DNA from: Halapricum desulfuricans
GTDB lineage: Archaea; Halobacteriota; Halobacteria; Halobacteriales; Haloarculaceae
Direction of reading: 5' to 3'
Length of the DNA: 64,000 bases
NCBI RefSeq assembly: GCF_017094525.1
Contig: NZ_CP064788.1
Location: 496,001 to 560,000, forward strand
Shown here: positions 3,691 through 6,080 of the stretch, in pieces
How positions within the stretch are numbered: position 1 is the stretch's first letter
Layout: every line of letters begins with the position of its first letter
Position numbers and translations under genes: made by a program
The notes under the pieces: model-generated
Told to the model about the DNA's origin: nothing
What the model saw: the letters and a program-made list of their open reading frames with translations, nothing else
Databases searched by the model: none

Positions 3691-3758
3691 TCCCGCCCTT
3701 CCCGCGAAGGACGAGCGTTCCGACGCTCAGTCGGAACCGAGGACTGAGCAGGGCGGGA
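3691..3758. repeat. Left-end hairpin of the IS element with an enlarged loop
   Basis: TCCCGCCC at 3691-3698 pairs with GGGCGGGA at 3751-3758. The 52-base loop contains two smaller hairpins: GAGCGT-TCCG-ACGCTC (3713-3728) and GCTCAGTC...GACTGAGC (3725-3749), which are mutually exclusive at their junction. The right flank (GTGAATCGCGTAAGCTC) matches the flank of a six-base-loop version at 31490-31511 (GTGAAGCGCGTACGCTC). This suggests the same left-end element with extra palindromic DNA in the loop. Confidence 0.6.
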
Positions 3759-3981: not shown

Positions 3982-5380
3982 GTGAAGCGTACCAACACGT
4001 TCGCCGTGCGCCCGCTCACCGACGACGATGAGCAGGTGCTACAGGACCTGTTGGACGCGTGTGCCGCTCTCTGGAACGAAATCAATTACCAGCGCCTTAT
4101 GCGCTACAACGACGAGGACGGCTTCGAGGGCGACGTGTGGGACGCTGATACTGGCGCTCTGGAAGGCAAATACAAAGGCGTTCTCGGCGCGTCCACCGCC
4201 CAGACTGTCCGGCGAGTAAACACCGAAGCGTGGCGGTCGTTCTTCGAGAACAAGAAAGCGTATCACGACGAGTCAAACACGTCGGTTACTGAACACCCCG
4301 AACCGCCCGGCTTCCGTGGCAACGAGGACGACGGACGTGTTCTCAAAGGCGTCATCCGAAAGGACGCCTACACCGTCGAATGGGGCGACCGCTCCCGGCT
4401 AGAGATGGTCGTCGGAAAAGAACTCCGTGATAGGCACAACAGCCCGAAAAGCCGTCTCCGGCTGGAAATCGTTGGCGACCCGAACTGGCCCGACTACGAA
4501 GACCAGAGCCGGTTGGAACTGTGGTACGACGAGACTGAGAGCACCTTCCGAGCTTCGCAACCCGTGACTGTTTCTGACGATGTACGGGATCCTCCACTGG
4601 CCGATGAAAAGGCCGCTCTGGATATTGGTGCAAACAATCTCGTTGCCTGTACCACCACGACCGGCGAGCAATATCTGTACGAGGGCCGCGAGTTGTTCCA
4701 GCGGTTCCGCGAGACGACACGAGAAATTGCCCGGTTGCAGTCCAAGCTACCGGAAGGCCGATACAGTAGCGAGCGTATCAGGCGACTGTATCGGAAACGA
4801 ACCCGTCGCCGTGACCACGCTCAAGAAGCACTGTGTCGTGACCTGCTGGAACGACTGTACGCCGAGGGCGTGGACACGGTGTATGTCGGTGGCTTGACTG
4901 ACGTACTCGAAACGCACTGGTCGGTCAGGGTGAACGCCAAGACGCACAACTTCTGGGCGTTCAAGCACTTCACCGAGCGACTGGTCTGTACCGCCGAGGA
5001 ATACGGCATCTCGGTGGAAGTCCGGTCGGAAGCGTGGACCAGCCAAGAGTGCCCACAGTGTGGCGGCACAGACCGAACGACACGGCATCAGGACACGCTC
5101 ACCTGCCCGTGTGGATTCGAGGGTCACGCCGACCTTACAGCGTTCGCAAGACGCGACGCGTCTTGCGTGCCCACGAGAACCTTCGGTTCTCGGGACGTCA
5201 GAAACGTTCCTGAAGCGGCACACAGAGAAGGCAGTCAGGCCGATGGCCCGGCCCGTGCGGTTCGAGTGGGACGACCACACTTGGTCGGAGTCACCACGCT
5301 CTCACGAAAGTCCCAAAGAACAGCGCACAGACCCGAGTACCGTCCACCACAACGGGAATGTTGCCTCCGGGGGATCGTAG
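3982..5380 (+). pseudogene. tnpB: TnpB-family RNA-guided nuclease/transposon protein, frameshifted
   Basis: The frame opens at GTG 3982 and gives normal TnpB up to codon 387. It has an N-terminal domain, RuvC-I LDIGANN (Asp214), the [14 protein letters not shown] block, the zinc ribbon (ECPQCGG and TCPCGFEG) and RuvC-III GHADLTA (Asp384). It then shifts out of frame. The missing C-terminus, starting [20 protein letters not shown], is encoded in another frame from 5198 to the TGA at 5378-5380. Removing exactly bases 5143-5197 (55 nt) rejoins the two into a normal 447-residue TnpB. As it stands, the frame runs on into unrelated sequence to 5955. Intact TnpB cleaves DNA guided by an omega RNA from the element's right end. 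This copy keeps all RuvC residues but loses its tail. Confidence 0.85.
5143..5197. repeat. 55-bp double-hairpin insertion inside tnpB
   Basis: The insert consists of two consecutive near-perfect hairpins. The first is CGCAAGACGCG-A-CGCGTCTTGCG (5145-5167) and the second is CGAGAACC-TTC-GGTTCTCG (5174-5192). It lies directly after the codons of the RuvC-III motif. Its length is not a multiple of three, so it causes the frameshift. A CGT is present at both junctions, which leaves the exact borders ambiguous by a few bases. Confidence 0.8.
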
Positions 5381-5434
5381 ACCGACTGAGACTCCCACGG
5401 AGGAAACCGCGCCGTTTACGGCGCGGAGGATGTC
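5198..5434 (+). ncRNA. Possible omega RNA / right-end region of the IS1341-type element
   Basis: In IS200/IS605 elements the guide RNA overlaps the 3' end of tnpB and the right end. Here the region from the restored tnpB tail to 5434 ends with a strong hairpin (5407-5414 with 5419-5426, loop TTTA) and GGATGTCA at the element border. The bases just beyond would be the guide. This is placed by analogy only, and no promoter or processing site is visible. Confidence 0.3.
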
Positions 5435-6080
5435 ATTCCAGCGCGGAGATAACTTCGTCGACGAACTGCTCGGGCGGGAGCCCGCCGGTGAACTGTCCGG
5501 AATCGTTGACGTTAATCTGTGGGACGCCACGGACGCCGTACTCCTGGGAGAGTTCCATGAACTCCTGGGACTCGATGCCGTCGGCAGTGATCCGGTCGTT
5601 CTCGATCGCCATCTGGTGGGCGGCCTGGACTGCGCGCGGGCAGTGCGGACAGGTCGGCGTCACGAACACCTTGATGTTGACGGGCTGGTCGATGTTCTGG
5701 ACTTTCTCGCGCACGTCGTCGGGGAGGTCCGTCTCGCCCGGACCCTGCGCGACCGCGATGAGCCCCTGCAGGAAGGCGCTGAACTCCTGGCCCGACGGGA
5801 TGCCGAAGTACCGGACGCCGGTGACGCCGTCGCGAGTGATGACGGTGACGGGCGCGCCGTCGTACTTGGTCGCGCCGAGTTCCTCGGCCAGCGGATCGTC
5901 CATGTCGTGGGTCTCGACGACGACGTCGTCGCTTTCGCCTTCGACGTCGTCGTAGAGATCGAGTGTCTCCTCGCAATACTGACAGCCGTCCTCAGTGAAG
6001 ACGTGGACGGTGACTGTCTCCTCGAGGGAGGTCAGGAGTTCGTTGACTTGACTGCGGTCGTCTGCGGAGAGGACTGACAT
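5433..6080 (-). CDS. Protein disulfide oxidoreductase (PDO), two thioredoxin folds
   Basis: This gene encodes a 215-residue cytoplasmic glutaredoxin-like protein of the archaeal PDO family. The N-terminal thioredoxin unit has GCQYC (Cys33, Cys36) and the C-terminal unit has TCPHC (Cys144, Cys147), followed by the cis-Pro loop [10 protein letters not shown]. Such proteins form, reduce or isomerise protein disulfides, usually with the second CxxC as the main active site. The ATG at 6080 gives the family's normal N-terminus; the upstream extension to 6230 has no family support. The IS1341-type element abuts its stop codon without truncating it. Confidence 0.85.

Follow-up and report, generated by a model that had tools for sequence, protein, structure and literature searches.

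What is the 55-bp double hairpin that interrupts a tnpB gene of the haloarchaeon Halapricum desulfuricans, and how did it come to lie there? The stretch analyzed (64,000 nucleotides; assembly GCF_017094525.1, contig NZ_CP064788.1, positions 496,001 to 560,000 of the forward strand), referred to here as the window, carries a tnpB gene whose frame is broken shortly before its 3′ end by two back-to-back hairpins. An initial annotation, made from the letters of the window, had proposed that this insert is a very small mobile palindrome. Comparison with other haloarchaeal genomes indicates that it almost certainly belongs to a family of miniature mobile elements spread throughout the haloarchaea. 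As to how the family moves, we favor a non-autonomous element of the single-strand type that is mobilized in trans, with an HUH/Y1 enzyme as the preferred mover, and assign this reading a rough probability of 0.65. The parts of the interrupted gene and of the element are as follows (window positions).

3982..5142, + strand: 5′ part of tnpB (387 codons), open as far as the insert (open reading frame, Pfam).
5138..5141, + strand: target tetranucleotide CAGC, left of the element (family target C(G/A)(G/A)C; empty sister sites ACAGC^GTCAGA and similar).
5142..5196, + strand: 55-bp double-hairpin element, GTT...GGGAC (filled/empty comparison, equivalent placements).
5145..5167, + strand: hairpin 1, CGCAAGACGCG-A-CGCGTCTTGCG (inverted repeat, covarying helix 1).
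5168..5173, + strand: linker TGCCCA between the hairpins, GCNCA in the family (alignment, genome-wide pattern).
5174..5192, + strand: hairpin 2, CGAGAACC-TTC-GGTTCTCG (inverted repeat, covarying helix 2).
5193..5196, + strand: near-invariant right end GGAC, which closes 123 of 135 distinct copies.
5198..5380, + strand: 3′ part of tnpB (60 codons and stop), moved out of frame by the insert.

The window tnpB starts with GTG at position 3982, has a frame open to 5142, and is matched by the Pfam families OrfB_IS605 (1e-30) and Cas12f1-like_TNB (4.6e-12). With the insert kept, the frame extends to 657 codons, and the final 60 residues of TnpB are swapped for out-of-frame sequence. Deletion of the 55 bases at 5143-5197 joins codons 3982-5142 to 5198-5377 and recovers exactly the 447-residue TnpB that the initial annotation had predicted. 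Its description of back-to-back stems of 11 and 8 bp also holds: at 5145-5167 and 5174-5192, respectively, both stems are perfect, with the arms of hairpin 1 (5145-5155 and 5157-5167) separated by 1 nt and those of hairpin 2 (5174-5181 and 5185-5192) by a 3-nt loop. The Asp codon that the insert had been said to follow closely is that of the HADL motif (5131-5133), and the insert was measured to lie three codons 3′ of it. The 55-base deletion has four equivalent placements, starting at 5141, 5142, 5143, or 5144, among which the borders seen across the family favor 5142-5196, between CAGC and GTCAGA.

Within the genome of H. desulfuricans, an identical insert occupies the same codon of a second tnpB gene, the two genes being 89% identical overall. 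Three further full tnpB copies, near positions 254,680, 1,690,750, and 2,228,150 of the 2.89-Mb contig, have an uninterrupted site. A covariance model of the family gave at least 8 additional matches here; one of them lies at a tRNA 3′ end, another within a transposase gene. A BLAST search with a 66-mer retrieved relatives from 20 of 146 genomes of the taxonomic family (13 of 22 genera), with matches in other genera at E values of 1e-22 to 1e-10. On sequence grounds, the insert is not a product of chance, because it has both these matches in other genera and the second copy at the same codon.

The covariance model extended this distribution considerably. At E <= 1e-5, it found the element in 124 of the 146 genomes and 21 of the 22 genera, counts that are lower bounds, with 35 candidates scored per genome. 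When genomes were sampled evenly across the phylum, the model matched (E <= 1e-7) 49 of the 53 that belong to the order and 0 of the 242 others. A gapped pattern run over 84,980 species yielded at least 107 structure-matched copies across at least 80 loci; among the 80 loci listed, 79 belong to named haloarchaea and one to an unclassified Euryarchaeota metagenome-assembled genome. BLAST with the consensus matched 49 plasmid records, and all matches listed were haloarchaeal and nearly always unannotated under the match; the consensus found no match in phage records, and one pattern scan found none in viral contigs. The search across haloarchaeal genomes that the initial annotation had recommended gave copies in many genera and in other tnpB genes. 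Close tnpB relatives are mostly free of the insert and other copies exist, so neither an in-frame segment shared by all close relatives nor a solitary sequencing artifact, the two outcomes that would have spoken against mobility, describes what was found. In those parts of the literature that were searched, neither an earlier description of the element nor its sequence motifs appeared; provisionally, the double-hairpin family appears to have been undescribed.

To find empty counterparts, the two flanks of each of 140 copies were joined and compared with all loci gathered. An empty or tandem counterpart was retrieved for 95 of them. In the best filled/empty pairs, identity is 90-98% across at least 150 nt and the element is the sole difference; in the clearest pair (98% identity over 157 nt) nothing is duplicated, and target duplication is absent from the filled/empty comparisons in general. 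The layout that emerges is a target C(G/A)(G/A)C followed by GTT-hairpin 1-GCNCA-hairpin 2-GGAC, with no coding capacity. Border statistics were taken from 88 copies found with a pattern that leaves the flanks unconstrained: the base at -1 is C in 95% of copies, and the two bases before it are G in 88% and G/A in 90%, while the element itself begins with G at +1 in 100% and T at +2 in 98%. Element length ranges from 53 to 62 bp and is mostly 57 bp among the 135 distinct copies, although the gap limits of the pattern may bias the lengths found.

The copies sort into about 40 target clusters. The largest comprises 23 copies, all in the left-end hairpin of IS605-like elements, on its 3′ arm; these elements are the commonest landing ground of the family. 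Further targets are several codons of tnpB, tRNA 3′ ends, and a transposase gene that looks IS6-like, and other copies of the element have also been hit, at the linker or at the end, to give nested copies (the labels IS6-like and, below, IS4-like come from reading the translations). The initial proposal of a very small mobile palindrome is supported by many unrelated sites, sharp ends, matched empty sites, and self-nesting. The median folding energy of target DNA was -8.95 versus -7.9 kcal/mol (p = 0.009, 40 clusters), and a general preference for hairpin targets is weak. In four genomes, this one included, copies abut the 3′ end of an apparent tRNA gene (CTGGCGGC^).

Conservation of the hairpins was assessed in 102 distinct copies, in an alignment fitted to the structure. 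In this alignment, 98.7% of stem cells are paired, and two-sided changes occur at all 18 pairs; shifting the partner by one to three columns lowers pairing to 34-54%. Excluding the outermost pair, two-sided stem changes outnumber one-sided changes by 244 to 9. Stem changes in an RNA would be expected to involve G-U intermediates more frequently. Because the stem changes are almost all two-sided and G-U steps are avoided, the alignment suggests that a DNA hairpin, rather than an RNA, is the thing selected or copied.

The history of the tnpB site was traced with a protein tree of 21 tnpB copies. The four insert-bearing proteins require four changes on this tree, and their grouping as a single clade is rejected (p-AU 7e-11, with no constraint placed on rows identical between the two sides). 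The insert-bearing protein from locus L036, for instance, is nearest to that of the insert-free locus L177. A single ancient insertion inherited with tnpB can be dismissed given this scatter. Because of the same scatter, and because two genes that differ by 11% carry identical inserts, we infer that the insert has reached the same tnpB codon more than once, through insertion or short conversion tracts. Across copies, the inserts at this site are 54, 55, or 59 nt long, and most of them therefore shift the frame. A family copy in antisense orientation was also observed at a third tnpB site in three genomes (L142, L311, and L256), the copy in L142 being 57 nt long and in frame.

By the mechanism that we propose, the element would travel as a folded single strand with the enzyme supplied in trans. 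The enzyme would recognize the hairpins and cut 3′ of the target tetranucleotide on the left and 3′ of GGAC on the right, with chemistry like that of HUH/Y1 transposases of the IS200/IS605 or REP type. We infer such a route because the target resembles the right end (CRRC and GGAC, respectively) and nothing is duplicated. As in IS200/IS605 elements, insertion occurs without duplication after a short motif akin to the right end, and subterminal hairpins lie by both ends. Taken alone, and argued by analogy, the specific HUH/Y1 mechanism stands at about even odds.

Several observations weigh against this reading. No autonomous version was found: each of the 193 right halves in the loci adjoins hairpin 1 in intact, degraded, or deleted form, and the candidate of a long parent with a transposase between the hairpins was accordingly discarded, none being present among these 193. 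The Y1 transposase family PF01797 (Y1_Tnp) occurs in 11 of 15 genomes with matches and in 10 of 15 without, and its presence was rejected as a predictor of the element for want of association. A guide of the IS608 type showed no covariation with the target across the 40 clusters, in which the targets vary little. What borders the resident IS605 left ends is TTGA(T)-like rather than CRRC. Family members served to train the covariance model, and an alignment fitted to structure tilts the pairing numbers given above toward structure. Finally, recurrence at the same codon may stem in part from short-tract gene conversion. Regarding candidate enzymes, some Y1 genes lie within ∼3 kb of copies with no flanking pair seen, and 5 element-bearing genomes are free of Y1; no resident tnpA-bearing element shares the ends of the element, the tnpA left ends having other borders.

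The missing association with Y1 transposases and the absent guide covariation are also what would be expected if the element were mobile but moved in trans by another type of enzyme, such as a tyrosine or serine recombinase, an IS110-type RNA-guided system, a plasmid or viral rolling-circle Rep, or through an RNA intermediate. Two published cases point the same way: the mover of the Haloquadratum SMRs was likewise left unknown (PMC3119063), and the duplication-free double-hairpin elements of mitochondria were credited to a possible RNA route (PMC2800124). The similar tetranucleotides at the target and right end, the lack of duplication, the conservation of the hairpins at the DNA level, and insertions that are nested or in tandem nevertheless fit a single-strand HUH enzyme, and the surroundings of the copies showed no candidate gene of a different type, although no systematic search for one was made. 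We consider another enzyme type rather unlikely, while giving it more credence than any explanation without self-movement. Among the latter, carriage of the insert by IS605 elements, with short gene-conversion tracts among tnpB copies, would account for the identity of the two inserts in this genome, the shortness of their identical flanks, and the many copies within IS605 elements. Yet the family occupies ∼40 unrelated target clusters with exact borders, among them the ends of tRNA genes, transposase genes of IS6-like and IS4-like type, and copies of the element itself, and conversion cannot create new sites. This explanation is very improbable and, judged by these targets, contradicted for the family as a whole.

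An archaeal bulge-helix-bulge intron, or some other RNA structure cut from the mRNA so that TnpB is still made, would explain why removal restores the frame exactly and why the upstream frame is open in several insert-bearing copies. The copies located between genes, within the left-end hairpins of IS elements, and beside tRNA genes, in both orientations to host genes, argue otherwise, as do the avoidance of G-U steps in stem changes and the lack of the insert in most tnpB relatives; given this genomic distribution a spliced intron is very improbable, and the broader proposal is scarcely credible. A sequencing artifact or chance palindrome is a negligible prospect in view of the second copy, the exactness of the borders, and the many genera with strong relatives. 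A non-autonomous element moved as a single strand by an enzyme in trans remains our preferred reading.

Beyond the insert, three features of the window belong to the host IS605-like element.

3692..3757, + strand: left-end hairpin of the host element, with an additional double hairpin in the enlarged loop (five-copy alignment).
5280..5296, + strand: second recurrent tnpB landing site, TTGGTCGG.^GTCACC, empty in the window and filled in loci L142 and L154.
5407..5426, + strand: right-end hairpin of the host element, CCGCGCCGTTTACGGCGCGG, plain in the window (alignment).

The extra double hairpin of the left end (GAGCG..CGCTC / CTCAGTC..GACTGAG) is common to the copy at 1,689,290 and missing from that at 255,840. 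A different double hairpin of 45 bp (CGTCGGGC...CTCTGT) occupies the loop of the right-end hairpin in two sister tnpB elements (416,250 and 1,690,900), and is found neither in the window copy nor in two other tnpB copies. At loci 1,514,718 and 437,316 of this genome, one kind of double hairpin is apparently nested within the hairpin of another kind, itself within a right-end palindrome, and at 437,316 a further double hairpin lies inside the innermost of these. Elsewhere, head-to-head pairs of the element form REPIN-like units of ∼114 bp with inverted ends (L145 861-983, L202 5560-5682). In two genera (L318 and L304), the tnpA gene contains an in-frame 51-nt double hairpin at one shared codon, which follows Pro-Lys; the stem sequences differ, and the style is that of Rickettsia palindromic elements. 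No Rfam family reached its cutoff. The sole Rfam match near the tnpB 3′ end is a weak one to HgcC (24.4 bits, cutoff of 50) at 5270-5444, which starts 74 nt 3′ of the insert and covers the tnpB 3′ end and the right-end hairpin; this segment is possibly the omega RNA region. The insert might disturb the omega RNA, as the initial annotation had suggested.

Miniature palindromic elements are known from bacteria and mitochondria. For the haloarchaeal family, exact borders, a target motif, dozens of filled/empty pairs, and genomes with and without candidate enzymes are on hand, and the mover is therefore open to direct search. That identical codons and end hairpins of TnpB elements are struck again and again is relevant to the decay or restraint of RNA-guided nuclease elements. 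Tentatively, and at less than even odds, the elements may constitute an order-wide family of ∼55-bp two-hairpin units that lands preferentially in the hairpin ends and genes of IS605/TnpB elements, is moved by an enzyme type new to such elements, and acts as both parasite and brake of TnpB transposons throughout the haloarchaea.

Among known systems, SMR-A of Haloquadratum walsbyi (HqIRS42, HqIRS43, and HqIRS55) invites comparison, and its mover was termed enigmatic in 2011 (PMC3119063). SMR-A is likewise haloarchaeal, non-coding, and duplication-free, often lies in near-terminal IS605 palindromes, and has no known mover; the 23 copies in IS605 left-end hairpins show the same habit for the element described here. 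However, SMR-A is ∼110 bp long with prominent inverted terminal repeats and no reported double hairpin, whereas the present element spans 53-62 bp. In 400 kb of a Haloquadratum-like genome, repeats of ∼110 bp (ends TAGTGATT.../...AATCACTA) are separate from the double hairpins of 57-63 bp that the model detected, and neither identity with SMR-A nor the derivation of SMR-A as head-to-head element dimers is supported there. These repeats, ∼106-117 bp long and inserted inside palindromes, fit the published description of SMR-A.

The fungal mitochondrial double hairpin elements (discussed in PMC2800124) also consist of back-to-back hairpins in genic and intergenic positions without flanking duplication. 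They differ in genomes and sequences, and the haloarchaeal family offers a target motif and many filled/empty pairs. Rickettsia palindromic elements and CGTC-tagged repeats are small in-gene palindromes with no known transposase (PMC3733652); their sequence is unrelated, and they are single stem-loops of 8-9 bp. A miniature inverted-repeat transposable element of a DDE transposon, defined by terminal inverted repeats and duplication, was rejected as a match, as no target duplication and just 5-6 bp of imperfect terminal complementarity were seen.

Bacterial REPs, BIMEs, and REPINs, with their RAYT/TnpAREP enzymes, resemble the family as tiny, imperfect, dispersed palindromes that are paired and clustered, and REPs are cleaved by single-strand HUH enzymes (PMC8266576, PMC3116915, PMC3733652). 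The haloarchaeal unit differs in having two unlike hairpins, no GTAG tag, and no linked RAYT gene, and in inserting after CRRC, whereas REPs are cleaved at CT. The REP tag GTAG/CGTC is absent from the consensus GTT...GGAC; a CGTC to the right of many tnpB copies straddles element and target rather than belonging to the element alone. Haloarchaeal PATEs and IS200/IS605 elements (PMC3119063) share with the family subterminal hairpins, duplication-free insertion, and a short target motif. The IS605 elements compared in this analysis exceed it in length, and their left borders are TTGA(T)-like, whereas the element of the window tnpB is made up of two hairpins alone, set between CRRC and GGAC.
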